A DNA stretch of 64,000 bases. It comes from Holothuria scabra. Its lineage: Eukaryota; Echinodermata; Holothuroidea; Aspidochirotida; Holothuriidae. This document shows, piece after piece, positions 7,963-43,265 of this stretch; position 1 is the stretch's first letter; each line of letters begins with the position of its first letter. The notes beneath the pieces are model-generated. The model was not told the origin of the DNA and ran no database searches. It saw only the letters and a program-made list of their open reading frames with translations. The stretch spans positions 24,551,648 to 24,615,647 of the forward strand of contig CM074189.1 of assembly GCA_037179385.1 (NCBI GenBank), read 5' to 3'. A program made the position numbers and the translations under genes.

Positions 7963-8043
7963 TCACTGAGTAGGTGAGTGTGGCACGTAATTATTAAATT
8001 CTCCCTTCGAGTCAGTTTCATCTTTGACTTTGTCATCCTGTGT
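7963..8043 (-). CDS. Gene B exon 16: C-terminal tail and stop
   Basis: Phase 0, 81 nt, from acceptor CTTTCTTTCAG to TGA at 7963-7965. The acidic/basic tail contains NNYVPHSP, a possible tyrosine docking motif (inference). An alternative acceptor six bases further in would only drop two residues. Confidence 0.75.
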   Translation of the reverse strand, partial: TQDDKVKDETDSKGEFNNYVPHSPTQ

Positions 8044-11000
8044 CTGAAAGAAAAGGAAACGCATCAGTGAGTTGATTATTTTATTCGAGAACAAGATGGA
8101 GGGAGACTAGGTAAGGAATAAACTGCATTTGTCGGACTATTGTTAGTTAATAAACTGCTGATACTCCAAATTTGGAGTAAGTAACGTACGAGGTGAAATC
8201 TAGCCCGTCATTTCTTTCAAATATGGAGTCGAGACGGGCCATTCACCAATAACAATCCGACAAATGTGGTTTATTTATTTGCTACCACCCCAAAAAATGT
8301 TCTTTTGGGAGTTTACTTTCTGGTGGCTTTCTAGTGTCTTCTGCAAGTCGTTATAACGGCCGATGTGTTGGAGAATAACCTGACAGTGCTTAACCAATCA
8401 GAATGCAGGATTCTAAAAAACCAGTCAGTAGAGGGTAAAACTTTTAGTGTTTTCCTAACCATTCGAATAATGTTGCATTCCAACACAAAAGTGTATATAA
8501 TTACATGAAAGCAGGCAGGTCTAGATGAAACGAAATTCAGACAAATTGCAATATCAACAGATTGTTATTTTTGGATAAGTCCGCTTTATAAAATAAAACT
8601 CCATCTGCAAGACTACCATGATAATTTAAAGGTAGTCTGACACGTCAGCAAATTGACCTGACTTCACTTGGCAGTTATGGAGTGAACTTTTCTAAGGAAA
8701 ACTCCGCCGGAATTATTTCAATATCTTTTACGGTACGTTCTGTAGATTTACCTCTTGAAAGTTTGAATGTTTCTCAAGAAACTTGCTGCTTATGCAAAAA
8801 TAATGATGTGCAGTGTTGCATATATAGTGTTGACATTTCTTTTGTTAACCCTATATAAGTTATCTCTTATCACATAATTTGTGGTTTGGTAATTGATGCT
8901 GATGATTTTCAAGGACACAAATTAAACTTCCAAAATAAAACCCTCAGGACAAACAAATGTTACAACTGTCCTTGAAAAGAAGATTGTAAAAACAAAGGAT
9001 AACATTAGCCATACATGGTGTGTCCCTCCCATGACACTACAAGATTTGCATATTGAGCTCATATTTATTAATGATTAAGTGAAAATCAGAAATTTTCTTG
9101 TAAAGTGGCCAATTTGTGATGGATTTTAATGAAAATTGTGACTATTTTCATGGTTTTTAATGCTTTTTACAGCCAATACCCAATTTTGTCATTTTCATGT
9201 CACACTACTTAAGGTAAGGAGCAGTCCCCCCAAACTTATTTTGAAGAAAAAGCTGAATAACACAATTTTCACCTTATTTCTCTTCAAAGTGTGTTTCATT
9301 ACATTTTATGACTTTACCTTTGCATATTCAAGGTAAACCAACAGTTATTTCTGGTAAATTTCACATTTGAAGAGAAAAAAACATTGTCACATGACTCTCA
9401 ACAGCCAATCATGAAACTGGACAGTCTACTACACTTCTTCAATTTGGGATGACTGCTCCGGCCCTTTAAGCAAGATTGTTAATTCAGTTCAACAGATGTA
9501 CCTTGAATGAATAAACTTAAAAAGTGAAACATGAAGAGTGAAATGAAATATGTTCATTAATGATAAATACTCACATCGAATTGAATACAGTGATACTCAT
9601 TTTGCAAGTTTAAAAGAGCTTCCTCCAGTTCCTCTAAGGATGGTCTAGTCTTTGGATCTAGAGACCAGCAGGGTTTTATAACTTGGAAGCTGTAACAGCG
9701 TAGCAAAAAGTAAGTTAATTTCAAATACGCCTATTTTTAATTTAAATGATTTTTTTTTAAATTTATCTAGTTCGCTTCAACCAAAAAGTTGCAAGTGAGA
9801 CTATCAACCCAGATGCACAACCAAAGTTTGGTTCGTTTGGTATACTTTCACTTTTTCATTGTTCAGATGTATTTGTTTATGACAACGAAGTTTTACTTAA
9901 CCAAGCAACACAAAGTCATGTTTTTGTGTTTCGTGTCGACGGATACCACTCTCTTGGCCTGTGCTTGGCTTTCGCCTGCATTCAGTCATCATTCACAAAA
10001 TTTATATTATTAAGAAACGAAGCTAAACTGCTTAATGATCGTCAATAGAAAATTAGGTAATCAGGTTAGTTCCTTTCATAGGAACACTCCATCTGAATAT
10101 AAGTCTCTCACTCACACTGGAAATGGACAAGAACCCAATTGGTCAAGCTTCTGATAGATTTTCAAGTGTTCTGTCTTGTGTGCGTCCAATGGTATATTTT
10201 TCCCTGTTGAATATATGATGTTAACTGCGTTGATGAATACATATTGGTAAACGCATGTAAATACTGTATGTTCTAAAGCCAAAACGATTTCTTGAATATG
10301 ATACTGGTCAGATGAGTATGTAGGCCTAATGGCTCTTTCGAGCCGCAACGTATTAAAAGCCATTTTTGTATATATTAAAGAGAAACAAATTCTTAGCATT
10401 CTGGTGAGTTTTTTTTTTATTAATTTCCTTTGTTTGGTTCTTGATATTAGCTATTGGAATGTGACGATTTTTAACATAAAATGAACTTCAAGCAAGCAAG
10501 GGTGATGTCATGAATTCACATTTTAAGACAATCTTTATATCCATTCATAATTTACCACCAATTTTATGAAATTAAACTGTTATTTTTTGATACCATGGGT
10601 GCATTATGAGCAACGGAAGTTTAAGAGCTTTATATGCCTTAGGCGGGGCAAGATATCATTCATAGCCATTTTAAGGTCAAATTAATAGGATGACAAATAA
10701 AGAAAACATAAAACACTGTCCAGCAATGTGAATCCATTACAGCTGCTTCCTTCAAGTGCACTATTACAGAAAATGTGTCAACTTAGGTTGCTAATATCTC
10801 GAGAAACAAACATGGGAAATAAATGAAACTTTTATCAGAATGCTCACAATGTTCCTCTTTGACATATCAAACATAAATTTGGTTCTGGACTTTTCTTTTA
10901 GGCCGGTATTACATATGACGTATTCTTATGATAATCTGCACTGGTAGAAAGTATCACGCACATTAAAGAAAAACTTGTATACATGTTGAATTTCCTGCCT

Positions 11001-14000
11001 ATAAAAACTCTGTCTACGCCTTTTTGCTTCAGTGAACGAAAGCCAACAAAAACCAGATAATAATTTACGCTACTGCTTGACTTTCACACCTCGCAAACAG
11101 TGACAAATCTGGAAGGTATCACTCCACCTTTGTTTAAATCTTCCGCTAGCTTTCTCTTACCAAGCTTGTGGTTTCTTGAAGCGTGCTTGAATGAGTTAAG
11201 CAGGAATTCGGGAGAAATTTGATTACCCCACCAAACCTCCTTTTTGGTGGGGACTAGGGTGAAATACCTAATAGGGTACTAAGTTCCTCATATAGTTACG
11301 GTATTCGAAAAATGACTTTGCGTGAGAGTTGAGAAATGTTCAACAGTGAAAAATGATGAAAAGGAAGAAGCTTAATAAGCAAGTTCGTTTATTCGTTTTG
11401 GAGGCTATGCATATGCGCACATCCTTCAAATCGTCGGGATAAGTAAAATAATCACTCATCTGCAACATATGTTCCAACATTTGAGTTTACATGAAGTTGT
11501 GCTGAAATACTTGTCTCTTAATCCATTCAGAGCATAAGTAGGAATTTTTAGTGTGGTTTTGTTCAAGGGATAGTTTTTAAATTGCGTTTTGGTTTAACAA
11601 TTCGCACTTTAATCTTATTATTAGACACTTAAATTAATGCTTAGGGTTTTATGTATTGACGTATACATGCGAGTACTGCACTAAGACAATGAAAAACCTA
11701 AATTATGTGCTGAGCTCGGTTTGTGTATCCCATGTTGTGCCCAACAATTTCTGTGCGCCAACGAATTATCGAACTCGCTAATGAGTGATGTTCCAGATGA
11801 CAGCTAAGACAAGTTTGATTGCAGCTTACAAATACAACCGACAAACGTTTTAGGCACTTGCTTATTCCAATAACAGCTTCAAAAGGAACAACATCATGGG
11901 GGATAATGTAAGATATCTCCAACAAATTTGGATAAACGGAGGGTAAGTACAATGTATGCTTACCGGAAGAAAATATTTCCCAAAATGTGATGCCAATAGC
12001 CCACAATTCGCTCTTGAAAGTGTACTCATTCTTCAAGATTACTTCCGGAGCCAGAAATAGCACATTGTCTGCTTTCGCCTATTGAAAAAAAACATTGCAC
12101 CATTGTAATGTATGTATTTAAACTGCAAAAATTACGTACCGTCTAGATCTACCACCTCGTTGTGTTAAGCGGTCGCATTGCAGGTATTTTTCCTGATCGA
12201 TTGCACATGATGAAACTATCCTTCTTACTTTTTGAAACATTCCTCTTCCCTGCCTGATTATATCTTACATCATATCGCCTAGGAGACGAAATGAAGCAGA
12301 CTACAAGCACCCTTGATACAATTAGCTTTCATAACTGACTTATTGATTGACAATACCAGATAAACCAAGATCCAGAAAATACGCAACATTGGGAATATAG
12401 TTAGCAGGTCGGCAAGTAGCAAGAGTGCAAGTGCATTTTTGGGTGAACACAATGGAAGCAAAGATCAGTTGAGAGCATACATAATGAATCAGTCTGATAT
12501 CAACTATACTCCACACCCTTTTTGATTTGATGCGGCGCCTTAAGTTTGTAGAATTATGAAGAGACAAAATTGCAAAATGTCTTTATACTGAATGAACAGA
12601 TTTGAAAGTTGCACAATCATGCCATTTATACCTACCTTGTATGTACCCAGTGCCTTCACTGCAATCGACATTCTACAGAAATCGTAGAGTTTCAGATATT
12701 GACCGTCCTTCGCCAGTAGTAATTTGTCCATACATAGACCAGGATGTAACCACTTTGAAAAGAAAGATATACCGTTACAAGGGAAATAATGTAATATTTA
12801 GCTAAATTTTGACAGTTGGTCTATTTTTTATATTTGAGTGATCAATAGTTACCACGTCCAAGAATGTTGGCAACAAGACCAGTACATCTTAGTGTCCTAC
12901 ATTCATAGCCATCGATATAATAGTCTTACCTATGGAAACTAATGCATTTACTGGTGCACCATTGCTCCTTAAAGAATTTGTGGTTCCATATGGTTTCTAG
13001 GAATGTCCTGTGTAACACTTAAGTACTTCTGGTCAAATCATAAAATTTTTATCGTCTGTGATTTGCATTATGAACGAACCTACAAGGCTAGAATATTAGA
13101 TTTTACAACGGCATTTGGTTTTCTTTGGATGCTACTTGCCATTTCAATTTGTGGTAAGTCACACGGGTACAAGCTTAATTAAGCCAATATCAAAAGGTTC
13201 TTCTTTGTTATCCAGAATGTTAGCTTCTTACCTTATTTGAATTTAAAAACTTTACCCCTCGAATTATATCCATAGCAAATGAAATAAAGAGATTTGGTAA
13301 ATCAAAAATGGAATATGTGTCACAACTCAGTTGTTTGGAATTCCGTTTAATGTATGACCGTACACTTTCGTTGGACGTGGCGTCTTGTATACAATAGGCA
13401 GTAGCTTTAAAGAGATTCAGAATTAAATTGCTTCGTAAATATTATAACAAAATTAGTAGTAGTATTAGTGTTTGCTGAGTTAAAAATAATAACAATATGC
13501 GGGTGGGATATGCTTTCCTTAATTTACTCTAGAACTGTCTGTCAACACTCTTAAAAAAAGTGGGCAAATTTTGCCCAACTTTTTGACCAACACTGGGCAT
13601 CTATTCAACAACCTAAACAGTTGGGCAAAACTTTAACCAGCCAAATTTGGTAAAGTTTGAACCCAACTGCTGGGCAGGAGATTACCCAACTGTTTTGTAA
13701 ATTAGCATTTAAAAGCATACCCACTTGTTGGGCACTTCTTTTATTAAGCTGTTGGGCAAATGCATTAACCAAATGTTGGTTATATGTTAATCATGATCTT
13801 TTCCTTAACCGTTGGTGCTTTCTTCACATGTTAGGTTGTAGGTTATGGCAGGGAGCTGCCACTGCAGCTCCCTGGTTATGGCAACCTATCGGTCCCAGTT
13901 TAAAAACCCTGGCTTAATAACCTATTTGGTTTGTCACTGAGTTCCGTATAAGTACGTTCAAAACTATCATTTTTAAAAGGCACTGTATTTTTAAAAGGCA

Positions 14001-17000
14001 CTGTAAAATGATGTGTGTAAATGATGTGATGAACTCTTGTAGTTTCATCAATGCATAAATATGAACACAAGGGCAGCATGAGAATTAACTGGTCCGTAGC
14101 TCTCATACACTGTTATCATGGTTATGAGACAGGTTTCTTGTTATGCCAAAAGCTTTCGAATAATAATATATAAATGCTCATTCGGACTTGAAAGAGAATA
14201 TACAGATCCTAACCTCTCATTGGATAGCAGTTTTGCGCCAAATACGAATCATGGAATCTCATACAAATGTGTTCTAGTTCGTAGTACTATTTAAAGAATT
14301 TTATGGAAATAGAGATCGATTTCATGGTCTAAAATAATGTACGAGTTTAGCTGTTTGGCCATTATAAAAGATGCCAAAGAGAATTTTCAGGTTATGGTAC
14401 CATGTCTGATTATGAGAAGAATTGTGAAACAAATCGGGTCAAGTGTACTGTTGTTTGGTGAAAACACTGCAACCAATAATATACCCAACAAATTGGCAAA
14501 AAATTACCCAACAAGTGGGTAAAGGGAAAATATGCTCAACTGTAGAATAAAATTTTATCGTCATTTTGACCAGTCAGTTGGGTATTACAGTATACGCGTG
14601 CATGGAAGGGGAAATTTAGGCATTTTGTGAGCAAAGATTGACCAACACTTAGGCAATTACTATTACTCAACAAAAACTTTGTCCAGCGTTTAAACAGTGC
14701 ACCAATTAGCCCCAAAGTTGGGCAAAGTTTTACCAACACATTTCATAAACTTCTTTAACCAACGGATATTTTACCCAACGTTTTAAGAGTGAATATGGAA
14801 ACAGAAGTCCGATTCCCCCATCAGACTGTTTTGAACTGCCACTGGCCAAAGGCTAAGGGATATTTAGAACAAGCAGGTGTGATGTAACGCAGGGATAACT
14901 TAAGAAATTCTTCAGAAAGTATACTCACATGCAACAACAGAAAATCCAATCGTAGAAATGATGTTTCTATGTTCTTCCAACCTGAGCAGACCACCAATGT
15001 GGCAATTCCATTCTGCAAACGCATCCGCATCTGCGACTAATCATTTTTTGAGAACATTGTTACATGAAGAATGCTCAATGACATCAATTTCCTAAATATT
15101 TACGCATTTAAAAATAGTTCTTACCATTATATTATTTCATTATATATAACTCATGAAAAGTTACCTGTGGGCTGCAAAATCTGCACGCATTTTTCACTGC
15201 CATCATCCTTTTGCAATTTGCCAACCCAACGCTTACATATTGTTCCTGTATCTAACGCGCGAATAAAGACCAGGTCTTGTGCCAATACTTCTTTGCCAGT
15301 GTCTTCGGAGAGCGGTTTGATGCTTGAAGATGACGGGCAATCTGTGACATCTGAATCACCAAAGATTAATGAGAAATTGTTTTAAACTACTGAACCAGCA
15401 GAATCTTCCCAAATATGCATTATGCAAGCAAAATAGATGTTAACTGTTGCCTGTTTTTAAATGATCTCGAAACCCACATTAATCTCGCACAACAAATAAC
15501 CCTCTGCACTCTTAAAATGTTGGGCAAATTTTTTGACCAACTTTTTGACCAGCACTGGGGAAATATATATCCGACCAACTGTTGGTCAAATATTAACCAT
15601 TCTCGGTTGGTTAATTGCTTTACCTATTGTTGGGCAATTTGTTTTACCAAGTATGTAGTAATATGAAAATTACCCAACTAGCCAGTTGGGCAAAATATTA
15701 CCAATTATTGTTAAAACGCTCAATTTCTCCTTATCCAGATGTTGGGTGTTTTTTCATTGTTTTACCTGTTACTGTGAAACGCACACTGGAATATTTCAGA
15801 GAAGGTACCTCTTCTACAAGTCTTAAAAGTTTCGGTCTTTTTCTAAAGTCCTCCCGCGGGCATTGATAATGCTACTGTAAAGAGTAGCAGGATTTCAATT
15901 GAGAAGTCATGTTCGACTGTTATACATATTCAGGGACATGTTTGTTATTATGAAAGATTAAACATGCAAGTTTCTTCATAACATTTCATGATCTCCTTCT
16001 TTATGTTGTATTGCAAAATTGAGAAGCATGATTTTCTACAAGAAATCACCATCGGCAGCTTCAATTCATTTCAATTAGACCTGCATTAGGTGATAAACAC
16101 AAATTTCATTTGAGAAATTTAGAATGCTCCATTCGGATGGAAGGTATATTAACCTGGTGTTCCGATAAATTACATAGCATTTATACATCGACTTTCCTCT
16201 TATTGTCTTAGAAGAATTGCCACAGTGTATGTGAACGTTCTGCAAAATAATAACTGTTAATGTGAATTATTAGAAATAGCTGTTATAAAAAAGAACCATT
16301 AATTGGCGGTACGTTTAAACAACGTTGGGTAACAAAATTCACATCATTTAACCAACGTTGGTTAAAAAGTTTCTCGGTTATTTTGCCCAAAATTGGGCAA
16401 ACTATAACCAACATCTACGTTGCCCAGAAAATGTTGCCCAACTTTTTACGAGTGTGTAATGGAAATAATTCTAGGACCAGCCATTACTCCGTTTGGGCTT
16501 TCTAAGTTTTGTATCCAACAATGAGGGTTATAAAGGCATGTCAATTACAGTGAAACTAGTGGCGGCGCTGGGAGGCATGGTGGAGCATTTTCCCCCTCAT
16601 ATTTTTTACCTTGCACCCAGTTGAACCTTAGGTTAAATCAGTTAAGGGTTAGGTCAACGGAAGAAATAAAAGATGTACCTCTTCTTAATTTTTCACCCAA
16701 ACGTATGCAAAGTTTACCTTAAAGCTCAGATCGTCAAGGGGGTCAGTCTTTGCGCTCCATTTTGAGAGCGCGCCTTGCGCTCGTTTATTTTGCGCACGAA
16801 CGTTTCCCCCCTTAATATTTCCCTTTCCCCAGAGATTGCCCCCCCCCCCCTCCACAGTTTTGACATTCTGGTACCGCCATTGAGTGTAACAAACTCGATA
16901 TTTTCAATTTAGTAATTACTCGACCCAAAATAAGAAAAACAAATTATATGAATCTGATTTTGTAAACAGGAATGGTTGGCAAGAACGGTGTGAACTTGAC

Positions 17001-20000
17001 AATATCTGCAAACACCATTCTCATTGTAAACAAGAGAAATGAAAATGGGAATTTTATGACTTACCAGGCAAGTTTATGAACTCAGGAGTGCAAGTTTCCA
17101 AGCTGTGTTATTCAAAAGCAAACAAGCATAAGAATGCATTCGCAACAATACATGTAATGTACATAGACAAGTTCACACAATGAAAATATTAGTTTTGATG
17201 GTAAATTTATTTAAAGGTAGTGTGACATGTCAGAAAAATGACCTGACTTCGCTTAGCAGTCTTGGAGTGAAGTTTTCTAAGGAAAACCCGTTGGAATTAT
17301 TTCAATATCTTGGTTCTTCAGGTATCCCTTTTCAGGTATCCCCCTTCTAATGACTATGTTTGTGCAAATCAGAAATCCCTTTGTAAAATGGTCAATTTTT
17401 GACGGATTTGTACGGAAATTGTGCTTTTTTTTCTTGATTTTTAATGCTTTTACATCAAATACCCCATTTTGTCATTTTCATGTCACACGGCCTTTAACAA
17501 CATTTGCAGGAAAATGAATATTGGCAAAACAACCTATCACTGTACTAGAACGATAAATTACCTCCCGCGCTCTTGAAATGAGGCACGTCTTCGAGTCCTG
17601 CCTGTTAAGATGAGAACAAAACACTGCCTTTAAAGTGAATACTACAATCAAATTGAACTTAATAATTATTATCATTCGCAGTAAGGAACCACCATTGCAA
17701 AGCCTCTTCATGGTTTACTGCTTTTGAAAATCGTAGAAAACATACCTTTCCACAATTGGATTGTGTAACATGTTAGTATATATGATGCGGGAGGCAAAGC
17801 AATTCCAAAAATACAGGCGAAGACCACGACCTTCACATACGTTTTGAGAAATTGATGGTCTAAAATGAACAGAATAGAAACATAATACGCAACCTTTTTA
17901 TTCTTGCTGGTGAGGTCACGTCCAAATAAACTTGTATTATGTTGATTGATAAGTTGTTTAGTATTTACTGAGATTATTATAACCATTTTCTAGTTTTAAT
18001 CAATACAATAAAAACGAAATGAAAGTGTCAACAATACCATGTGACCTGTTGAGTTTATTTGTAAGGATTTGCACTTCTTGGGGTTGGCTAACCACGAGAC
18101 GACCGTATTCTGCTGTAGCAAAGCATCGGTAGCTGCCCTGGATATCAGGGGTAACATTTTGAAATATGAATGTCCAAGTTGTGTTTGTTCCTTTTGATCC
18201 GTCCGATGTAGCTTTTGATTCCAGTGTTAACCACTGTTTCTTGTTGAAAAGCTTCTGTAGTTTCACATCTGGTGTTAGCATGTCAGAAATCACGCACGAC
18301 ATATTGATGTCGTGACCATTTGCAACTTTCATGGACGTATGTGCTAGCACAGCCAACGGATCTGGTCAGAAACAAATGTACAAATTTCAAGTAGCTCATC
18401 CTGCAAATGGTATTAAGGCCGTTTTGCGCAAATGGACTTGACGTAAAGTTAAATACCGTAACATAATATATAGTGCACATGTTTCGTCACTCTTTGCCAC
18501 AAGCGTGTTTGCCTGTTTCTCATATTAGTAAATCAAACAAGAACTGTAAGGGTTGGGGCGAACCCAGTTATATTATGTCAGTCTTTAATTCTAAGGAATA
18601 CTGGAGGGGACTTCTCTGATGAGCATAAGTTCAAATAAAAACACCGCTTGTTACAAGAGATTGAACGCATGCTTCACTCGTTAGTGTAATAATACATGTC
18701 AAAACACAAAAAGATATGAAGGTAAACTTGGAATGAAAATTTAAAAGACGTATAATGCATGTGACGTCACAGAACAACTTGAGGTCAACGCTCCATCGTT
18801 TGGAGGCCTGGAAAACATTTTTCATCGCAAGTTAAACGAACAAACGGAGACGGCTGATATCCCGGTTACGAGCGTAGTCTCCACCCTGCGCGCCGTGAAA
18901 TCTCAGGCGTTCTTGTCGCGTACTTCATTGTTTTGCTCCAGACTGACGTCACTTAAATGTCAGTTTAAGTGACGTCAAAAAATCACAATTCATACGTGAT
19001 TTTTTATTCAGGGACACTCCTTCAATTTTTTGTGGGAAATAAACGACTTGCCTTTTAATAATGTACCTAATAGTCAAATAGTCTTATTTTGATCCACATG
19101 AATTACTTGAAAACGCACTGAAGTATATCAACTTCCTACAATTTTCACACGGTTTTCACAGCTTTCCAATCAACCAAATTGTAAATCCGATTAAGTTTAT
19201 GATTTAATTTATAAGACAGTCGGAAAAGTTACTTTTCAAGCAAAATTATAGTAGCTTAACTTAAACGTTTATCTCATTTACTTACAGAGAAGTTCCACCT
19301 TTAATTCTTCACTAATAGAAGTCCTTTTGAAAGAGTTTTCTGCTGAACATCTGTACTTTTCACTTGGCTGTTTATTTGTGGCTCTAATGTGGAAGTTCCA
19401 TGATATGGTATTAAAACTGTTGTTAGAACTGGACCTCGTTATATTTGTTATTGTTTTCCATTCATCCTTTTCGTAGTATTCTAGGTAAACTAATGCTTCT
19501 TCTGTACCATCAAATATGCATGTGACGTTAATATCTTGATCAGCATAAATAAGTAGTTCACTGTTTGCACTTGAACATGGACTGACCTCTATTTTTATAA
19601 CCGGAACATCTGATGAGAAGTAAATTTTAGGATATAGAGAACTTAATTATATTGACGCAGGGCCAACTGACAATATAGCTGCTTCAAATGTATCCGCTTA
19701 TAAACAGAGCGGCGTCCGAAGGAAAGAGGCCACCACTTCCTAATATATGCGAAAAATGTAAAAAGAGACAAAACGAAGGGAAAAAGAGGAAAACTAACAC
19801 TCAACTCATGCTCACTTCTATTTTGATAGAAATGAAATCCATATATCTCTTTTACCTACACAACAGTTGTACCTTGCTCTGCCTGGTTTTCAAATTGAAA
19901 AAAGATAAACTTTTATCTTTGAAGGGGTTGTCGCCACTGTAAACATTGATTAAACAAAGAAAAGTTTGTTACTTACATGTGACTTGCAAGATTTCGCTCG

Positions 20001-24307: not shown

Positions 24308-24470
24308 ACACTGTAAAAAATAGTCTTTTAAAATTATAAACTTGTTTTAAAATTACAGAAGAAAAATTAAAGAAATACAAAAAGACTACACAAAAAGTGG
24401 TCTCAATGAGCAGACAGCACTTTTTATTCATTCTTATGTTTTTCTTTATTTTATTTTTTATAAATGACAA
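24308..24470. mobile_element. MITE family G copy 1 (ACACTGTAAAAA)
   Basis: It shares the blocks AAAATTACAGAAGAAAA, AAAAAGTG and a TTTTTCT-TTATTTTATTTT segment with 52015-52172. The left end is ACACTGTAAAAAATAG. Terminal symmetry is weak. Confidence 0.6.
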
Positions 24471-24472
24471 GA

Positions 24473-24473
<1 letters not shown>

Positions 24474-24503
<30 letters not shown>
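24474..24503. repeat. (TG)n microsatellite
   Basis: About 15 uninterrupted TG units stand just outside the family G MITE. Confidence 0.95.
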
Positions 24504-24505
<2 letters not shown>

Positions 24506-24945
24506 CCTTATAGATATTATATCGAATTTGTTCACAATAGGAGTCAAGACATATGTATGTTGTGGCGTAATGAAAAATTCAGCAAAATTGTATTCAGAGA
24601 CGACAGATCAACTCTACTCTACTCGTCTTTCATAAATGTTAACGATATGAAGAAATCAACACGTAAGCAAACTTACTTTTCATTCCACAAATCACTGTAT
24701 CTTACGCAGATAGCAGCTAAACGGTGATTTCAAGCAGTACATGTTTAGAAAAGAACGTAAAAATTTAAATAATGACTAGCACTCTCTGGAAAAAAAATTT
24801 CACTCAGCTCGACTGGTGTTTCCAATACTTTCATTAGGAACAATGCTCTGATTTATGTGATAGTTATACTGTAGTTAAAACTGATAATTGTTTCCAGGTA
24901 AATGAAACGAAATTTATCTCAACTAGACCTCGTTGACCAGCAACT

Positions 24946-25129
24946 TTAGGAAACATGAATTTCCGTGGCATACATTTCTTGATCTGTTTCTGCCGGAAAC
25001 CTTTGTGCCTCTTCGCTGATAATAGTCATTTGATAAGTTTCAGCCGTACTTTTCAGCCGTTCTTCCAAGTCAATGAAAGTTGGTCGAGACATTGGATCAA
25101 ATACCCAACATTGCGTCATAATGTCATAC
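24946..25129 (-). CDS. Gene A exon 15: helix H, tail and stop
   Basis: Phase 2 in, 184 nt to the stop. QCWVFDPMSRPTFIDLEERL closes the kinase fold. The tail has Tyr residues in AETYQMT and EMYATE. The single exon equals gene B exons 15 and 16 combined. Confidence 0.9.
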
Positions 25130-28100
25130 CTGCGTGAAATGTGAGAGGGGGGAGGGTAGATCAACTTCATTAAGTTCTCCTCCCACTGGAATGTAACGTT
25201 TAGAAATGTGATAGTTGAATAGTTTTCTTTTTCATATACATGAGAAGTTAAAAAAATGTCTTACAGTTGCCGTGGACAGTTTGAGGGCTTCGGTAGTTTG
25301 TTTTGAATGTCTGCGTGGCATCTTCTTCCGCCTTCATTCGGAACTATTGCCCCTGAACAAACGATAATTTATTTATACTCTCATATTATTACATAAAAGA
25401 ATGTATCACAAAGCAAAATTTGTTTAACGACATAAATATCTGTTGTTTCATTGTTCAGTTCCCAAGTTTTGATTTACAAGTTCAAAAGCAAAAAAATAAA
25501 TAAATAAATAAATAAGTGAGAAAAGAAAAAAACTTCAGTATTACAGAAATAAGGTATTTTTTTACTTTACCTACCGTAAGAGAATATTTCCCACATCAGA
25601 ACTCCTACCGCCCAAACATCACTTCGATATGAATATTCATCACGTTGAATAACTTCCGGTGCAACATGGAGAAATCCATTTTGAGTTTTCTGGTAAGCAA
25701 CATAGAATAACTAACTCGTTGTTCCATTAAGAAAAATCCTCTCCATAACAAAAATTTTAAAATATGACATACTCACATTTTCAAGAATAAAATTGACCTT
25801 GTCGGTTCTATTGCACATATGACAGAAGTCATGTAATTTGCAACGTTTTGTTCCGTTGTCAAGCATTACTTTTAAAGCACAAAGACCAGGATGAATCCAC
25901 TGTAAAATAGAAAAAAGGTCAACAAACATAAGTTTCCCTCACTAGGTAGTCATATCCTTTAACCGAAGTTTTCAAACTTATTTATTTATTTAGCCCCTTA
26001 GCCACAATCCACACAGTAGCCCATCTAATCGATTAATTTTCACCATTACGGACGAGGATGATGGTTTGTTCCAGCTATCAGAACGATTACGTATAGCAAT
26101 TACGATTGATTATTTTTGAGTGACCTCGAGCTGCAATTGTTAATTGATCCTAATTAAAGGTCCTCGTCAAAGTGTCAGATTTGTCGGGTTTGTGGTTTAC
26201 ATAGCTTTAAAAGTACTGCCGTCCTCATAGTGTTTCTGGAGATATTTGGGGGAAACAACTTAAAGTAAAGAAAATTAACCGACGTTTCAAATTCGGGTCA
26301 ACTTTGGTTATGAGGTAATGAGGAAACACACGGAAATGTGAATTTCTATTGAAAATTTTAAAAAATTCAAATCATTCTTTAAAAAAATCTTTCTGCCTAC
26401 TATGATACTGGGAACCAAATAACAAAACAATGATATTACCCCATGGTATCCTAAGAATTCCATTCCACAAACAACATCTAATGCAAAGGTGACGAACTCT
26501 TGCGGTATAGGTTCCACCGTATTGCCGTAAATGTAACTTTGTCCGTACTCTGTCTCCAGAAACGTCCTCAGATTTCCGTAAGGAAGATATTGTTGTACGC
26601 AATACGCAATTCCTGCAACAACAAAATTGATTTTGGTCTCATCTGCATTCGGTACCAAAATACAACATAAGAGAAGTGTCAAGCACTACTAACAGCAAAC
26701 AAGGAGAAAAGAATAGACTCACCGTTATCTTCAAACGTTCCAATTGTTGTTACAACATTTTCGTGTCGTGGAAGCTTAACGACAAAATGAAGGTGCCGAC
26801 TCCATAATGACGACATGGTGGATTTCACATTATCTGGTGAAAAGAAATGAGTTACATATCGTGTAAGCTTTAGTAAGCTAGAAGTGTGTTCCCAATCAAT
26901 ACGTCAGATTCCAAACTAAAGGAGGGATACTCAAAGCTTGTCTTCCATTTAAGGGGAAGTAATTCAGTCTCCCCCGGGCCAACTTGAATTATTTTTTAGT
27001 GTCACCAGTTTCTTGATAAATTGAACCATGGGAGTCATGTGTCATCCTCAATATTTTCCTCCTTAAAAGAGAATATTCCTAGGAGTAACTTCTTGGTTTA
27101 CCTTAGATGTACAGCATTCTAGTCCTAAAATATTATGTGAGATATTTTGACGACAAATACCACGATAAAATTGTGAAACTCAGCATGTTGCTCCGAAATA
27201 AGTTTGGGTCCAATAGGCCTACTCTTGCTCTTTACATACCATCCATATGGTCACTATATTTGCGAAAAGAGAATTTATTAACATCAAACACTGACAAATA
27301 AATTTATAACATCCTTCATCTTGTAACAGTTTGAATGGCCAAAGTGCATAAGGATTTGTGTGGTATTAGAGGATCGACAAAATATCACAGAAAAATGCTT
27401 AAATAAGTAGTGAGGTTGCACCCACCTGACAAAAATGAGACACACACATTTTTCTCATTATCGAATGACGTGGTCTTTTTTATCATTCCCAACCATCTCT
27501 CGATATGTCTGCCCCTCTTTAACTTTGATATAAACTTAATATTTTCCTTTGAAATTATCTCGATGTGCTTGGCAATGCAACCCTTGTTATCGTCACTAAT
27601 TGTATTATATAATTCTGAAAAAGAAGAATTAAAACTCTTGAGACACGTTATTTGTTTGCCGGTAACATTGTTATCTTATTTACAGATTAGGTTTGGTTAT
27701 ATTTATTTTACCGACCATTTTCTACCCAATTGGTTTAAATACAGCCGGCCACGGCCTTTTTTCCAGGTGTGGCTCCCTGGCTTGTTTTCCCTATTGCATT
27801 ACTTATTTACAACGTCCAGTGTACCTGCTATTACAAACCTAGATTTTCTTCATATTCCTGTATTATTGGAACTTCTTTCGGCGTTGCAGGTAGATGTCGT
27901 ATTCCTCTTCTGAAACTGTAAAGGAAACAAAAATAATTAAAATATTATGATTCTATCTTTTTATCTATCAATTCACTAAATAACTGAACATTTATAAGCC
28001 TATAATTATGCTACAGAAAATAAATCTCCCTACGATGCAAATTTTCATAATTATTGTAGTTCACAAAACGGTCATTTTAAGTTTTACGAGAGCAGTCTGT

Positions 28101-31100
28101 GAAATATTTGCATAATTACCTTTCAACCTACATCGACAGGGGAAGAAGGTAATTTGAATAATTTATTAACTTAAAGTGATGGTAAGCGATTATTTACGCA
28201 CCTCTTGGACTCGTTGTGACACTTTCCGGACAATAAACCTCCTGTTGATGTATTGGAGAGAAACTGAAAGTGACTGCTATGTGTTATGAGTATGTATTGT
28301 TACATTAAGTTGCATGAAGTGTGATATTTTTTTATATCGTCAACAACAGTTAGAGAACAAAGGGTACATAGACATAGTAAAAGTGCTATGCGTTTACACG
28401 ATGCTTTGCATATCGTTAACAACAGTTAGAGGACAAAGGGCACACATAGTCATAATAAAAGTGCTATGCGTTTGTATGATGCTTTGTGTTTGGAGTCAAA
28501 ATGGTAATAAGTAGAGAAAAAGACAAAGCTTGCTGTTAAATTCCATACTTAACACAACCGCCCCTACAATTAACGTCGCAGTTAATACTGTGGAGACAAC
28601 TGCTATCACAGCTGCGGGAAATGTACTTGCTGTATCGTCTTGTATGACTGTAACATTACCTGCAATCAAAACAGGAGAGAGTTGCTGGCTCAAGCAGGAA
28701 AGGCACCCCATGCACAAATCCGTATACAAATAATACCTTCATTACGTCCAACTTCATACAGGACAAACATGCCTCGATGTTTCTTGCAGCAAGTGGCAAA
28801 CTTGAAGCTTGCAGTACGTTAGCTAGAAATTATTGGTAACATCCATTTTAACAATTGTTAAGAAATAACTTTTACCAACGCGTGCAGCATAGGCGACATG
28901 CAGCTATATAGATGAACGCATGAAAATTTTGAGTAGATGCGCACTGTTTAACAAGGTGTTTCTTGATTGGTTGTTGCCATTGTATTGTATCGGCTTTATT
29001 CTATGTAAGGGTTAGGGACTATAGGTTATGGATTAGGCTATCGTTAGCCGGTAAGGATTTATTTGTTAAACAGTGCGCATCGCCCCAAAATTTTCCCAAT
29101 ATTCGTAATAAATGTGTATGGTTATTACTGTATATATATATGTGTGTGTGTGTATGTTTATATCTGATGGTGTGTGTGTGGGTGTGTATGTGTGTGTTTA
29201 TCACTTCAATGCCTCTCACATCAAACAGTTCCAATTCTTCTAATCTTCTTCTAAGCCCCGCTCACAATTTTTTAAAATTCATCCTCACCTAGACACAATC
29301 TCACTCTATTGCTTCAGGGTGAGTATAGAAGAGCCCAGTGTGTAAGTGTAATCAAAGCACTCTCAGTGAAGTTCATGATGTGAGGTATGAACTTCAATCG
29401 GTACTCCGCACTATCTGAACTAGCTGTCAATCAAATAGCTGGGCCGATTGAGAATATCTGTGATCGGACAAAGCCCTTAAACAGAGGCGTTTACCATTGT
29501 TTTGGTGGAACATATAATAGACGTTATCGTGGCTTCATTTGTCGGAAGTATATTTCCTTGCCTCAGGAGACTAATCTTGAGTTGCTTATAACAGAAAAAC
29601 GTTTTTTTATTTCTGCTGTTGCATATGCTAAATTATTTTTCATCCTGAGATATGCTAAAACTGCAAATTTTTCAGAGCTTTGCTCCCTAAACCCCTCCAC
29701 TAGAAATGATTATAACATCATAACTTCAAGTGGAAATGCCGATACTTATTTAAACCGAACTTCTTCCTTGGTAACACCATTAATTTTGACACGTAACCAT
29801 TGAGTTCATTATTTTTTCGTTATTTAGCCTGCAGTCGTACGGCTCAGTGTTTAACCAATTGGCTCAAGACACGACCGCCCTCCGGAAATCTGTTTTCCAG
29901 TTGTGGCTCACTGGACCGTTTGTTTTAGTCCCTACTCCATTGCTTACATTGAGCACCAAGCACAATGACAGTAGGTTAGTTGTTCAAGTCACTGGTATGT
30001 AATCATTAAGATATCCAGTTACTTAATGTAAAATGAGCAGAATTAAAATTTATTTTTAGACTCACGTGTGGCCTCAACAATTACTTCTTGACTAATTGCA
30101 TAATCACCCACACCATTAAAGCCAACACATCTATAAGACCCTGTCAAGTCTGTCTTCTGGTCCTCAAGACGGAACATCCACGTCGACACCATATCCTGCT
30201 TGAAGATTGGAATTGGTTTCGCAGAAAAAGAATTCCAGTTATTTTTTCCAATATTTCGTTGCAACTGCACATTTGGTTCTGGGTTTCCTTCAGTTTGACA
30301 TGAAATGACAAGTTCGTCTCCATCTTCAATCTTTATGCTGGGAGGCATTAAAATCTGAATTGTTGTAGGAACTAGAAAAAGTAACAATACACTCCATATT
30401 TAAAATGGTATTTTACCCGCTTTCTGGACAGTTTGTTTTGCGCTACTTCAGTGGAATAGCCAGGAATTTTCCAGGGGCAAAAAAGTAAAAGTTCTTTGAA
30501 AGTTATTCTTATGATGCAGTTTGAAACAAAATCTAATGAAGACCGCTGTAAATGAGGGAATTTTCGTTCCTGGCTCGGAACGTATGGATATTATTCATGT
30601 ATGCAATCAACTATTCAATATTACATTGATGACTGGGACTCAGATCGCGTTTCCAAGTGTGAGGATAGTCTAAGTCATATGATAACGTAGGTTTTCCTGA
30701 CCAAAAGGCTACCAATCAGAGCGCCACCATCAGTTTACTCGAATCTTATGGAATATTTTGAATGAGACAGTCGCAAGTGACATTTCTCAGCCTTGTGAGA
30801 CTTGAAGGATCTGTGTAGTCATTATTTTTCACTTTCTTTTGCAATAAAATTTTCAATTCAATAAAAAGTGAACAAATTGTAAAATGATCACGACAGAAAA
30901 TTACCAGAAGAAACGCGAATGCAAAGGCATTTTAGAGTGTACGTGAAGGGGTACTCCTAATTGAAGGATCTCTGCGCTATGTCAACTTAAAGCAGTTATT
31001 GTGTGAAAATATTGTGGTTATTGAATAAATTAGGTAAATTCGTAAACAATTATGATCCTTCCTTGCTCAGTACTCAAGGTCAGCTCAGTACTCAAGATGC

Positions 31101-33941
31101 ATTTGTTCGCAACCATTTTGAAGGTATGTTCAAGGCAAATGAGAGATTTACCCGAGGCTACACTCCATGGTTTTATATAGCAATTAAGGGAAGAATCCAC
31201 GAATTGAACGCTTTTCACTGGTCTTAACGACCGCTTTTACCGACTTTATTGCATGAGCTATTGCCAGGACCATGAGTGATCTGTAAAATCTACAAATGGG
31301 GAATATTAATAAACAATATTTCTCCTAGTAACTGTGTACATCAAAGATTCCATATACATGAAATCACTCTCTGATAAGTGTTTTGGCAATTTCCTTTTTT
31401 TCTAATTCTTGGAGAAATTAACATCACTTTAAGTAAAAACACCTTACTTGTTATATCTACATAAAAATTGACAAAGCTGGTATCCATCGATTTCAAACTA
31501 TCAGCAAAGCATCTGTAGTGGCCTTTGTCATCCGTGTCTACTTCTGCAAGTAAGAACGATACTTTAATGGTTTCATCATCCATTTGATTTTGTTTTGAAG
31601 CCATGTTTGTTGTTTCCCAGTTATTTAAATCATATTCCCGTTGCAAGGTTACGACAGGGAGAGGATTTCCATCCGCTACACATGTTATGTTGAGAAGAGT
31701 ATTAATCTCTACTGAAAGTGTAGAATCTTTAAATGTGCCTAAAATATTGACGGTCGGTGGATCTGTTGAAAAAATGAAAAAAGTATATTTACAATATTTC
31801 CTATCATTTGCTCCATGCCGTGGAATCCTAAGATCCTTTAAGAGCAAAAGATTGCAAGAAAATATCAGGCACTATCTTGGGTATTACGAGAACATCGCAA
31901 TACAACAAATACACAATGAAAACTCACAAAGAACATCTAAAATAACTGCAGTCGAAGTATCAGCCCGACTTTTAACATAACATTGAAGTTGTTTATTGTT
32001 GTAGGCCCTTAAAGTTTGAATTCTTAATATCGCACAGATTGTTCCGTCCTGTGATGAGGTAGGTGCTACACTCGAGGTATCCATATGAGGGAGGTCAGGA
32101 AATCCCTCCAAAGTCCAGAATATTTCTTCCTCTAAAGATGGCGGTGCAAACTGAATACAGCAGTTTGCCTCTAGAAAATTTCCTTCGATGGTTGTGTTGG
32201 AATGAAGAGACAGAAGAGGGTACCCTAGGGTAAATAATATACAGTTTTCACAGTTTTCAAGTCTTAGAGAATGTTTCCAGCTTGAATATGGGAAGGCAGT
32301 TACCTTTTTACCATACCGAAGCTTAACTAATAGGAAGATTCCAAAGAAACAGTTAAAAAATTTGTGTAGCTTTGTTAATTTCAAACTGCATAATCACAAT
32401 ATTTTCGTTTTACATCAGATTTGAATCGATTTTCATTACCAACAAAAAATTGTATAGGGTCTGTTTTAAATGAGAGAGAGTACGTAAAATATACTTTTGT
32501 TACACGCTGAATATTTATGCAAAATATTTACACAGAGCATATAAGACGATTTTGGATTACTTTGGACGGTTTTGGTCAGGACAATTTTTCAATCTCAATT
32601 TCTTCCCTTCCCGTTACAGTTTCGGTGGAAAATATCAATTTCCTCTTTAAATATTTGTTAATCTTCAAGACGCGTAAAGCGTCAATTGTTCCTACCAAAT
32701 CGTCCAAAAGGATTAGGACGAAATTTTAAAATGAAGACACATGTTTCATATTCTTTCAAAATTACACAGAATCAGCAAACTTTTCACTAAATAGACAACT
32801 GAGAAGAAAGAGTTTGAGCATATTGTTTTCAGAACCAGTTTACTGATTTTTTTGTGCGCAATACACTTAAAATACAATACCTTGAACTCTAAGGGTCATG
32901 TCCTTTTTCTTTGGAACTCCTGATCTCAGGTAAAAAATACAGCTATAATTCCCAGCATCCCTGAACGATATATTTGAAATCTGCAGTTCCACGGTTGAGG
33001 CATCTTCTTTAACTCTTGACGTAAATCTATCCCTTGAGATATGGTCACTTTCTGGGTTGTGATTCAAAATGCTGGCACCATTGTGCTCCCAAATTATAAC
33101 GATTGACGTCTGTGTCAGGTTAGAGGCACACTGAAGTAAAGCAGATCCTCCGACTGATACAAGTTGTTCATATTGTAGAGAATACGCTGTGAGATAGATC
33201 AGCAAAAGGGTCAATTTAACGCTGTGTTCGAATAAGTTTGTCTGTTCGTCAATCTAATGATAAATTTGTGATGAATTAAGTAAAAGCACGTATCTCCCAG
33301 CCTCTCCACAGAAGCGCTTATGCACTGGCTCTGATAGTTATTTTCTACATTTCCTAACCCCTAGCAGCAGGGGCGTCGAACGTCGTCGATCCTGGGGAAG
33401 GGGAAAATCGCCTCACTAATTAAATTAATGGGGGACAAACGTATCGTTTGACCCTACAACAATTCAGGCAGGTTTAAAAAAAAGAAGAAAAAAGCAGGTA
33501 GGATAAAACAAAATGTAATATTGTGCTATACAGATGACTACTGTAGTAGGAAATAGAGGAAATGTCTGTTTGGGTCTATTTTAAAGCAATGGTAATGCAT
33601 TTATAATGCGCCATCTAATTTTTTGTGTATATGCTTGTCCATGTGAGTGCGTGTGTTTGCTTGTGTGTATAGGTGTGTCCTCGCATTCCTTTGGGTGGAT
33701 TGCTCACAGACGAATCCAGTGACGAACACGATCCGAGGTTCCGGCTGTTGGAAAATTTTTACCACTCAATCCACAAACCACCAAGTAACCCGATTACACT
33801 TTTTCGGGGAATATAAAGTACAAATTCGACGAACGTTTAACTTAGTATATACAAATAGGCCTATCAGTACATAAAACACTTACCTATTAGAAACTCGAAT
33901 GAAAAGAAAACCTCGAAGAGACAAACCAACAGTGACTTCAT
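24946..33941 (-). CDS. Gene A: four-Ig receptor pseudokinase (FGFR/VEGFR/PDGFR-like), 830 aa, 15 coding exons
   Basis: Coding exons, 5' to 3': 33884-33941, 32881-33186, 31928-32224, 31448-31762, 30066-30371, 28549-28659, 28202-28241, 27839-27915, 27426-27614, 26723-26833, 26440-26612, 25777-25899, 25575-25689, 25265-25352, 24946-25129. They total 2493 nt and all phases close. Order: signal peptide 1-19, four Ig domains (20-121, 122-220, 221-325, 326-427), transmembrane about 442-464, basic juxtamembrane, and kinase-like domain about 528-800. GMEFL at 653-657 is a VEGFR/PDGFR-type helix E word, and the kinase insert is short as in FGFR. Catalytic residues are lost: Ser563 (beta3 Lys), His580 (alphaC Glu), HPG 664-666, Lys671 (Asn), DFC 685-687. 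The activation segment has no Tyr. APE 712-714 and SDVWAVG 725-731 remain. Role as a non-catalytic receptor is inference. Confidence 0.88.
25265..25352 (-). CDS. Gene A exon 14: helix F-G linker
   Basis: Phase 1 in, phase 2 out, 88 nt. It starts AIVPNEGGRRC and ends PSNCPRQL, equivalent to the RP-x-x-CP region of receptor kinases. Confidence 0.85.
25498..25514. repeat. (AAAT)n short tandem repeat in gene A intron
   Basis: Four AAAT/TAAA units stand between exons 13 and 14. Confidence 0.8.
25575..25689 (-). CDS. Gene A exon 13: APE motif and helix F
   Basis: Phase 0 in, phase 1 out, 115 nt. HVAPEVIQ and SYRSDVWAVGVLMWEIFS are textbook C-lobe signatures. The Trp of the usual KWMAPE is absent. 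Confidence 0.92.
25777..25899 (-). CDS. Gene A exon 12: dead catalytic loop and DFC motif
   Basis: Phase 0-0, 123 nt. IHPGLCALKVML stands where IHRDLAARNVLL is expected, and LHDFCHM where xxDFGLx is expected. Confidence 0.92.
26440..26612 (-). CDS. Gene A exon 11: hinge, short insert, helix E
   Basis: Phase 1 in, phase 0 out, 173 nt. YLPYGNLRTFL is the hinge and helix D signature of split-kinase receptors, and VVCGMEFL is helix E. The insert between them is about 15 residues, as in FGFR. Confidence 0.9.
26723..26833 (-). CDS. Gene A exon 10: alphaC helix to beta4
   Basis: Phase 1-1, 111 nt. HENVVTTIG is the beta4 anchor. The alphaC Glu position, ten residues before HEN, is His580. Confidence 0.82.
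26990..27215 (+). mobile_element. MITE family B, degenerate copy in gene A intron
   Basis: The segment GTAACTTCTTGGTTTACCTTA followed by a block ending in TAAAATATTATG matches the interior of 4318-4580. The ends are eroded. Confidence 0.5.
27426..27614 (-). CDS. Gene A exon 9: kinase N-lobe, degenerate glycine loop
   Basis: Phase 1-1, 189 nt, with a strong acceptor (TTCTTCTTTTTCAG). The loop reads LKRGRHIERWLG and beta3 reads NVCVSFL, with Ser in place of the ATP-anchoring Lys. Confidence 0.8.
27685..27815 (+). repeat. Dispersed repeat family K copy 1
   Basis: The core CCAATTGGTTTAAA, GGCCACGGCC, TTCCAGGTGTGGCTCCCTGG recurs at 29815-29985, 43470-43570 and 48893-49045. It ends just before gene A exon 8, so an insertion lies within about 25 bases of a donor site. 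Confidence 0.6.
27839..27915 (-). CDS. Gene A exon 8: juxtamembrane, part 2
   Basis: Phase 2 in, phase 1 out, 77 nt, starting SFRRGIRHLPATPKEVP. It is open in the required frame with acceptor TTTCCTTTACAG. Confidence 0.75.
28202..28241 (-). CDS. Gene A exon 7: juxtamembrane, part 1
   Basis: Phase 1 in, phase 2 out, 40 nt, reading RGLLSGKCHNESK. Another frame of the same bases looks more basic, but only this frame connects both neighbours. Confidence 0.65.
28338..28490 (+). repeat. Tandem duplication, ~76-bp unit, in gene A intron
   Basis: Two copies start CGTCAACAACAGTTAGA and CGTTAACAACAGTTAGA, each followed by AAAGTGCTATGCGTTT and a GATGCTTTG end. They differ at few positions, so the duplication is recent. 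Confidence 0.8.
28549..28659 (-). CDS. Gene A exon 6: transmembrane segment
   Basis: Phase 1-1, 111 nt. The membrane span runs from PAAVIAVV to GAVVL (about 22 residues). The donor is GTATGG. Confidence 0.85.
28945..29090. mobile_element. MITE family H copy 1 (GCGCACTGTTTAACAA ends)
   Basis: Left end GCGCACTGTTTAACAA and right end TTGTTAAACAGTGCGC are perfect inverted repeats. The second copy is at 38828-38970. The element is in the gene A intron between exons 5 and 6. Confidence 0.85.
29213..29465 (+). mobile_element. MITE family A, partial copy in gene A intron
   Basis: It matches the interior of the family (AGTTCCAATTCTTCTAAT through AGCTGGGCCGATTGAGAAT) without the right terminus. GT-rich microsatellite sequence precedes it (29130-29200). 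Confidence 0.65.
29815..29985 (+). repeat. Dispersed repeat family K copy 2
   Basis: It has TTTAACCAATTGGCTCAAG, TTCCAGTTGTGGCTCACTGG and CACAATGACAGTAGGTTAG, as in the copy at 48893. Confidence 0.6.
30066..30371 (-). CDS. Gene A exon 5: Ig domain 4
   Basis: Phase 1-1, 306 nt. Motifs LVISCQTEGNPEP and LTGSYRCVGFNGVG are clear. The acceptor is TTTTTCTAG and the donor GTGAGT. Confidence 0.9.
31448..31762 (-). CDS. Gene A exon 4: Ig domain 3
   Basis: Phase 1-1, 315 nt. Motifs NITCVADGNPLP and DDKGHYRCFA mark an I-set-like domain. The donor is GTAAGG. Confidence 0.9.
31928..32224 (-). CDS. Gene A exon 3: Ig domain 2, C2-set type
   Basis: Phase 1-1, 297 nt. Cysteines are in EANCCIQ and QLQCYVK. 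The YNNKQLQC word replaces the usual D-x-G-x-Y-x-C, as in CD80-like C2-set domains. Confidence 0.88.
32881..33186 (-). CDS. Gene A exon 2: Ig domain 1
   Basis: Phase 1-1, 306 nt. The Ig Cys pair is present (LLQCASN, GNYSCIF). The acceptor is TATCTCACAG and the donor GTATTG. Confidence 0.9.
33884..33941 (-). CDS. Gene A exon 1: signal peptide
   Basis: The ATG at 33941 gives the leader MKSLLVCLFEVFFSFEFLI, then a phase-1 donor GTAAGT. An earlier ATG 31 bases upstream is in another frame and yields no leader. The downstream start is chosen because it is hydrophobic and matches gene B exon 1 in length (58 nt) and phase. Confidence 0.8.
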
Positions 33942-43009: not shown

Positions 43010-43265
43010 AAAACCAAGTTTTTCGAAATAATCGATAAACTTGGTTTTTCGACCGATAATCTTGGTTTTTCGACCGATAAACTTGGTCTTTCGACCGATA
43101 ATCTTGGTTTCTCGACCGATAATCTTCGTTTTTCGACCGATAATCTTGGTTTTTCGATCGATAAACTTGGTTTTTCGATCGATAAACTTGGTTTTTCGAC
43201 CGATAAACTTGGTTTTTCGACCGATAAACTTGGTTTTTCGACCGATAAACTTGGTTTTTCTAATT
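43010..43265 (+). repeat. 21-bp tandem array, right foldback arm
   Basis: About 12 units of TTGGTTTTTCGACCGATAAAC run in opposite orientation to the left arm. They end at TTCTAATTATTGGACATTTCG, the complement of the left terminus. Confidence 0.9.

Follow-up and report, generated by a model that had tools for sequence, protein, structure and literature searches.

Among the closest described systems are HER3 (ErbB3), a pseudokinase receptor without an immunoglobulin (Ig) ectodomain, and PTK7/CCK4 and insect otk, which are Ig-repeat pseudokinase receptors. Here we analyse 64,000 nucleotides of the sea cucumber Holothuria scabra (positions 24551648-24615647 of contig CM074189.1, hereafter C11; the window), in which two neighbouring genes, A and B, encode Ig receptors whose kinase domains are dead by motif. 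Eight human receptor tyrosine pseudokinases are counted in the part of PMC13259870 available to us, where HER3 is described as an allosteric activator. HER3 resembles A and B in having His in place of the alphaC Glu; unlike them, it retains the beta3 Lys (VCIK), HRN...N and DFG (PMC13259870, Table 2). None of the eight has HPG or DFC in that table, in agreement with a preliminary description of the window, which had held the motif of the pair to differ from those of known analogues. Human PTK7 differs in having seven Ig domains, VLVK, HKD...N and ALG, according to the same part of that source. The catalytic loop reads HGD in starfish PTK7 and HKD in ant otk, both with the Asn, against HPG...K in A and B, which have four Ig-length exons, not seven, and kinase domains outside the PTK7/otk clade. 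Ant otk (P0002) shares with A and B the His of the alphaC column and the Cys of the DFG-Gly column; this is probably convergence, because in the tree otk and PTK7 stay separate from the family to which A and B belong.

Active receptor kinases provide a further comparison. As in FGFR, an Ig ectodomain is combined with a kinase domain that has no long insert; the best PDB match of the A kinase is FGFR2 (E=3.9e-29), to whose domain A aligns across alphaD-alphaE without a long gap, and that of a four-sequence profile is FGFR1. Unlike FGFR, A and B have four Ig-length exons, have lost the beta3 Lys and the alphaC Glu, and carry HPG...K and DFC in place of the active signature HRD...N and DFG. For B, the best PDB match is a tandem EGFR kinase entry, followed by FGFR4, with KIT close. 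A Foldseek search was made with the AlphaFold model of P0015, a relative of B; among the 50 rows listed, receptor tyrosine kinase domains reach a target TM score of ~0.7-0.8, the kinase part pairs with PDGFRA, KIT and CSF1R, and the FGFR rows show 20-24% identity. The ectodomain matches listed include many Ig-repeat proteins at low TM, with titin first, KIT second and VEGFR-1 at rank 13 (target TM for KIT and VEGFR-1 only 0.25-0.28), accompanied by PTP-delta, pIgR and DSCAM. In contrast to KIT, PDGFR and VEGFR, A and B combine four Ig-length exons and a dead site with the absence of a long kinase insert, exon 11 measuring 173 nt in each gene.

Expansions of receptor kinases have been described in the sea cucumber Apostichopus japonicus. 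In the parts of these sources available to us, the 'Fgfr' expansion comprises 38 genes, mostly in a separate clade, whose expression is activated in gut regeneration (Li et al. 2018, PMC6018497), 'tyrosine-protein kinase receptor' is among the expanded families with a clustered distribution (PMC5638244), an H. glaberrima preprint mentions both expansions (PMC13228809), and AjFGFR2 is described as three Ig plus STYKc (PMC9890533). The 'Fgfr' expansion is like the present family in being a sea-cucumber receptor kinase expansion that falls mostly in its own clade; unlike the present family, its genes are taken as working FGF receptors (PMC6018497). Lost catalysis goes unmentioned in the passages on these expansions in PMC6018497, PMC5638244 and PMC13228809, and no report of a sea-cucumber receptor pseudokinase was found by title or abstract among the literature matches listed, which left subscription papers mostly outside.

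Gene structure and active site of the tandem pair

Both gene models were assembled manually from splice sites and frames running stop to stop (Table 1). Gene A has 15 exons and encodes 830 amino acids; gene B, with 16 exons, lies head-to-tail 2.9 kb downstream. Exon order and phases are the same in A and B, exon by exon, and the lengths are nearly equal (A/B, in nt: exon 1, 58/58; exon 6, transmembrane, 111/114; exon 7, 40/40; exon 8, 77/77; exons 9 to 14, 189/186, 111/108, 173/173, 123/117, 115/115 and 88/88), while the last coding part is one 184-nt exon in A and two exons of 115 and 81 nt in B. Each gene has four Ig-length exons of 297-324 nt, every one of phase 1-1. With both genes modelled and collinear, the tandem pair of uninterrupted receptor genes in the preliminary description is confirmed. 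The proteins are 26% identical end to end (E=2e-97), and the chance of open frames this long is ~1e-25 per gene at this base composition, an optimistic estimate because the choice of exons can dodge stops.

A signal peptide, an ectodomain, a single transmembrane helix (in A the hydrophobic stretch of residues 445-464) and a kinase fold are present in one protein, in A and B as in the model of P0015. Pfam recognises Ig and PK_Tyr_Ser-Thr in A (E=5.4e-42) and PK_Tyr_Ser-Thr in B (E=1.7e-27). The four-Ig ectodomain proposed earlier is borne out by the exon lengths and by the P0015 model; Pfam alone, however, sees three Ig stretches in A and a single one passing by itself in B. The weak point is the B model, in which rough-matrix splice scores are -3.8 for the exon 8 acceptor, -6.6 for the exon 10 acceptor and -1.8 for the exon 5 donor. 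Exon 10 is backed by P0015; exon 8, which encodes a poorly conserved juxtamembrane region (39% identity to P0015), rests mainly on collinearity with A.

In alignments with active relatives, the alphaC Glu is replaced by H580 in A and H588 in B, HRD by HPG in both, the catalytic Asn by K671 and K679, and the Gly of DFG by Cys (C687 and C695). Two of the three glycines of the glycine loop are gone, leaving G538 in A and G549 in B. APE, the alphaF Trp, the alphaI Arg, the HRD His and the DFG Asp are kept in both proteins. The earlier statement that every residue for phosphotransfer had been lost is correct for the beta3 Lys, alphaC Glu, HRD Asp, Asn and DFG Gly, and does not extend to the DFG Asp and the HRD His. 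At the beta3 position A has Ser563. For B, MAFFT put Gln570 in this column, but it also put there Cys561 of A, two residues off; counting back from the shared exon boundary, which is our own reading of the alignment, gives Leu572. The residue previously named Gln557 is Gln570 once the 13 residues of exon 7 are added; the first reading was evidently made without this exon, because its number for B is 13 too low. No reading of the beta3 position yields Lys.

A receptor tyrosine pseudokinase is recognised by substitution of at least one of the beta3 Lys, the HRD Asp and the DFG Asp, and here the beta3 Lys and the HRD Asp are both substituted; judged by motif, the kinase domains of A and B are dead. 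Other exons that might restore K, E, HRD or DFG did not appear: regular expressions for the canonical HRD, DFG, APE, VAVK and glycine-loop motifs had zero matches in the six frames of the whole window. As a control, the HRD expression matched loci L001, L002, L003, L014 and L016 (three distinct places) and none of L004-L008, which are kinase matches, so it is an incomplete test.

Relatives, further copies and origin

A search with A returned 14 proteins, headed by P0001 of Holothuria leucospilota (763 aa, 67% identity over the full A query), which is annotated 'Fibroblast growth factor receptor 2', another likeness to FGFR. It was followed by five insect otk or otk-like rows, one starfish PTK7 row and other receptor kinases, at E=2.7e-25 or weaker. 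P0001 is without the transmembrane and alphaG exons that gene A has, and its annotation is probably incomplete. The search with B, which scored the 7,988 candidates sharing most words under a limit on candidate length, returned two proteins, P0015 and a weak VEGFR3. P0015 is a complete open reading frame (ORF) of 829 aa, 63% identical over the full B query, on a contig of 4,094 nt whose source is given as 'lgn', which we take to be read assemblies. This contig is probably a transcript or cDNA of the B orthologue, since 829 intronless codons stand on 4,094 nt, as compared to the 14-kb gene B. With a profile, seven further proteins were found, all from A. japonicus (P0017-P0023) and all with HPGL and FC; six are 'uncharacterized' and one is called CSK-like, and six have 697-960 aa and one 354 aa. 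Each sits on a contig of 34,621,101 bases, so they probably share one chromosome. The profile search did not return P0015 although P0015 was in the query; the protein searches are thus not exhaustive. Relatives are already in the databases, as 'FGFR2' in H. leucospilota or 'uncharacterized' in A. japonicus.

Eleven family proteins were compared: A, B, P0001, P0015 and P0017-P0023. In all 11 the HRD Asp is Gly, the catalytic Asn is Lys and the DFG Gly is Cys, and the alphaC Glu is kept in none of the ten with a residue at that position. By the exon-boundary offset, the beta3 Lys position is occupied by Leu in both P0001 and P0015, by Arg in P0017-P0021 and by Ser in P0022-P0023. The Arg-Trp directly after the glycine loop is invariant across the ten family rows compared. 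The dead motif is common to H. leucospilota and A. japonicus, which dates the loss to the split between Holothuriidae and Stichopodidae or earlier.

The genome of H. scabra itself (1.19 Gb, 31 contigs searched) gave 35 matches to the A kinase part, 8 inside the window and 27 elsewhere. From the latter we took 13 as 10-kb stretches (L017-L029), chosen as matches to the APE exon on C11, C10, C5 and C22 and not at random. Of the 13 stretches, 11 have a recognisable catalytic-loop exon (none was recognised in L025 and L028), and in none of the 11 is the HRD Asp present: six have HPGL (L017, L018, L022, L026, L027, L029), two HPAL (L023, L024) and L019-L021, which are weak matches (E 0.04-0.05), HVAI. 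The catalytic Asn position is Lys in 10 of the 11 loci and Asn in L022; CKLYDF comes next in nine, with CKLFDF in L023 and CKLYDI in L027. Dead catalytic loops are therefore found firmly at at least 8 loci besides A and B, at least 10 with them, and weakly at 3 more. The two-gene set supposed earlier has to be given up: the family is wider, occurring in Holothuriidae and Stichopodidae and with further copies in its own genome, and the finding is larger than the A/B pair. L019-L021 (C11:43.5-43.9 Mb) are three similar copies with the loop HVAIRVEKVLYY (a weak match) and LGPD instead of APE, and are possibly a further branch.

Active-looking kinases were seen for contrast. By tblastn, L031-L034 (on C13 and C11) have HRDLAARN or HRDLSARN with DFG; L030 showed no catalytic exon. 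L032 (C11:31306500-31311000) and L033 (C11:23191500-23195000), on the same contig as the window, carry the active-looking exons CVHRDLAARNILL, DFGLARD and APESLL, with introns placed as in the family, just before the catalytic loop and at the last Gly codon of the WEI..G exon. More matches lie near 22.98-23.2 and 31.3-31.75 Mb on C11, and active receptor kinases of this type are possibly multi-copy.

In a kinase-domain tree that also held three active rows and one row each of PTK7 and otk, the 11 family members form one clade (100/100) on a long stem of 1.55 changes per site, and PTK7 and otk pair in a clade of their own (100/98). The program flagged long branches meeting in this tree. A second tree, built on two exons (80 columns, 9 of 20 forks open, L020 and L017 long-branched), took 8 of the 11 dead genome loci (L018, L019 and L021 were left out as near-copies), 3 of the 7 A. 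japonicus proteins, seven active rows and one PTK7. Here too the dead members, 15 in number, group in a single clade (100/99), with active receptors, FGFR2 and VEGFR next to it. Both trees place the family next to FGFR and VEGFR with no firm sister. Because all sampled members fall in one clade, catalysis was probably lost once. The same dead motifs in A, B and their clade agree with the earlier proposal that the loss preceded the A/B duplication. We conjecture that the expansions published for A. japonicus, under 'Fgfr' and under 'tyrosine-protein kinase receptor', may be in part the present dead family.

Features of the window

Table 1. Positions of genes A and B and of their main exons in the window, with the basis of each assignment
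Feature	Position	Strand	Basis
Gene A, Ig-receptor pseudokinase: signal peptide, 4 Ig-length exons, transmembrane, juxtamembrane, kinase domain, tail (M at 33941, stop ends 24946)	24946..33941	-	spliced model, P0001, Pfam
A exon 1, signal peptide	33884..33941	-	spliced model
A exons 2-5, Ig-length, phase 1-1	33186-32881, 32224-31928, 31762-31448, 30371-30066	-	spliced model, Pfam
A exon 6, transmembrane	28549..28659	-	spliced model, hydrophobic stretch
A exon 7, 40-nt juxtamembrane mini-exon	28202..28241	-	length and phase as B exon 7
A exon 8, juxtamembrane	27839..27915	-	spliced model
A exon 9, glycine loop (degenerate) with beta3, Ser563 for Lys	27426..27614	-	model, alignment
A exon 10, alphaC (Glu to His580)	26723..26833	-	model, alignment
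A exon 12, catalytic loop WIHPGLCALK and KLHDFC	25777..25899	-	model, alignment
A exon 13, APE and alphaF, intact	25575..25689	-	model, alignment
Gene B, Ig-receptor pseudokinase, 840 aa (M at 22083, stop ends 7963)	7963..22083	-	spliced model, P0015, Pfam
B exon 1, signal peptide	22026..22083	-	spliced model
B exons 2-5, Ig-length	20768-20472, 20282-19977, 19609-19286, 18361-18038	-	spliced model, Pfam
B exon 6, transmembrane	17746..17859	-	model, hydrophobic stretch
B exon 7, 40-nt juxtamembrane mini-exon	17562..17601	-	restores frame; length and phase as A exon 7
B exon 9, glycine loop (degenerate) with beta3, where exon anchoring puts Leu572 for Lys	15165..15350	-	model, alignment
B exon 10, alphaC (Glu to His588)	14929..15036	-	model, alignment
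B exon 12, catalytic loop WLHPGLCMDK and KLYDFC	12636..12752	-	model, alignment
B exon 13, APE and alphaF, intact	11964..12078	-	model, alignment

Outside the two genes, the start of a glycosyl hydrolase family 35 gene (beta-galactosidase-like) lies at 61513-62109 on the plus strand (Pfam E=6.1e-16), the only Pfam match among ten window ORFs scanned. A tandem array of a 145-nt unit, with ~10 copies, occupies 39-1496, where periods of 301 and 446 were detected too. Arrays of a similar 21-nt unit stand in opposite orientation at 40449-40656 and 43033-43260 (TAGAAAAACCAAGTTTATCGG, CGATAAACTTGGTTTTTCGAC) and are open in several frames. Within the introns of gene B, at 13540-16440, a short palindrome-like motif around TTGGGCAAAATTTGCCCAAC recurs several times and looks by eye like a dispersed mobile element.

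Possible role of the inert kinase domain

Conservation between orthologues is uneven along the proteins. For A and P0001, identity is 90% in the hinge-alphaE exon, 88% in the catalytic-loop exon and 89% in the APE exon, compared with 62-76% in the Ig exons; for B and P0015 the corresponding values are 83%, 82% and 89%, compared with 51-69%. In alphaH-I it is 89% (A/P0001) and 78% (B/P0015). The hinge-to-APE exons are the best-kept part in both pairs, which argues for docking or allostery and not for decay or a simple decoy; as they outrank the ectodomain, the kinase domain is unlikely to be mere ballast. Outside the kinase fold, A and P0001 share the tyrosine motifs YEENLELYNTI and EMYA.EIH, the tails of B and P0015 share N.Y.P, and some A. 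japonicus members have a juxtamembrane Y.[ST]I comparable to the A type. The AlphaFold model of P0015, built on 25 sequences, shows a signal helix, four beta-rich Ig-like stretches, a transmembrane helix and a kinase fold (mean pLDDT 72).

Taking these data together, we propose that A and B belong to an expanded family of Ig receptors that lost catalysis once and whose dead kinase domain serves as a docking or allosteric module for an active tyrosine kinase, a proposal to which we give about an even chance. Beyond the domain being dead and conserved, we infer every step. The family would derive, as single-pass Ig receptors, from an active receptor kinase of the FGFR/VEGFR type, and the loss of catalysis would have come before the family spread. 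The Ig ectodomain would bind a ligand or another receptor, while the inert kinase domain, keeping its fold, would act as a protein-interaction module that forms a pair with an active tyrosine kinase, holds it or tunes it allosterically. This partner would most likely be an active Ig receptor kinase or a cytoplasmic tyrosine kinase, and it would phosphorylate the juxtamembrane and tail tyrosines, the signal presumably running in that direction; the active HRDLAARN Ig-type receptors of the same genome are possible candidates. With a kinase domain unable to phosphorylate and a C-lobe core that is best kept, a docking or allosteric partner would be the simplest account, by analogy with HER3.

Several observations weigh against this proposal. 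The N-lobe (71% in A/P0001, 66% in B/P0015) and alphaG (66% in B/P0015) are no better conserved than the Ig exons, and the conservation of the C-lobe could come from folding stability alone. The P0015 model has a pTM of 0.40 and pLDDT of 50-70 over much of the N-lobe, and an intronless retrocopy would look just like the presumed P0015 transcript. By PDB sequence matching the ectodomain comes closest to DSCAM and contactins instead of to growth-factor receptors, and B lacks the juxtamembrane tyrosines found in the A type. In addition, the DFG Asp is kept in 9 of the 11 family proteins, which leaves room for residual metal or nucleotide binding.

Two other accounts, each of which we consider unlikely and neither more so than the other, are the main rivals. 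The receptors could be decoys or ligand traps, their ectodomain titrating FGF/VEGF-type ligands or blocking active receptors and the dead kinase being only a folded anchor. Lost catalytic motifs and a complete ectodomain suit this account, as do the exons of active Ig-type receptor kinases elsewhere in this genome; however, the hinge-to-APE exons are better kept than the ectodomain in both orthologue pairs, and the pure decoy FGFRL1 has dropped its kinase domain, unlike A and B. Alternatively, the family could be a diversifying recognition or immune repertoire, in which duplicated Ig receptors sense microbes or neighbouring cells and are coupled through the pseudokinase and tail tyrosines. The many loci across four contigs, the varied sizes of the A. 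japonicus members, the faster divergence of the Ig exons compared with the hinge-to-APE exons and the clustered, expanded 'tyrosine-protein kinase receptor' family reported for A. japonicus in the relevant part of PMC5638244 all point this way, but expansion alone suits many functions and Ig identities of 51-76% between orthologues are not extreme.

It is very improbable that the altered pocket catalyses a different transfer reaction or uses nucleotide binding as a switch. The retained DFG Asp would fit such an unorthodox catalyst, and so would the conservation of the altered loop itself, with the same His, Gly and Lys in each of the 11 proteins; on the other hand, two or three loop glycines, the beta3 Lys and the alphaC Glu are lost, the replacements vary between members, and locus L022 retains Asn where Lys is otherwise found. 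Least credible of all is that these are decaying receptor-kinase pseudogenes. Key catalytic residues are indeed lost, synonymous sites between A and B are saturated (pS 0.76, dS infinite, dN 0.88), so that dN/dS is not measurable, and some other genome loci may be decayed. Against decay stand two open coding frames of 2.5 kb with conserved exon phases and conserved dead motifs, orthologues in other sea cucumbers and the apparent transcript of the B orthologue. Codon-position identities between A and B are 0.40, 0.55 and 0.34, a pattern partly forced by the protein-guided alignment. For A and B themselves we reject the pseudogene explanation on account of the intact frames, the orthologues and the conservation, and the earlier view that the pair has been retained and is not decaying stands.

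Returning to the docking or allosteric proposal, we suggest, with somewhat less confidence than for that role itself, that sea cucumbers may carry a clade-specific set of dozens of Ig receptors, dead after a single loss, that much of the published 'Fgfr expansion' linked to gut regeneration may consist of them, and that regeneration-responsive receptors may dock or tune and not phosphorylate. A dead receptor that has multiplied and spread over contigs, with its C-lobe core kept above the ectodomain, would offer a natural test of a kinase fold free of catalysis. Where FGFR expansions have been named on the basis of domain hits and invoked in explaining regeneration, some of the receptors counted may be unable to phosphorylate.

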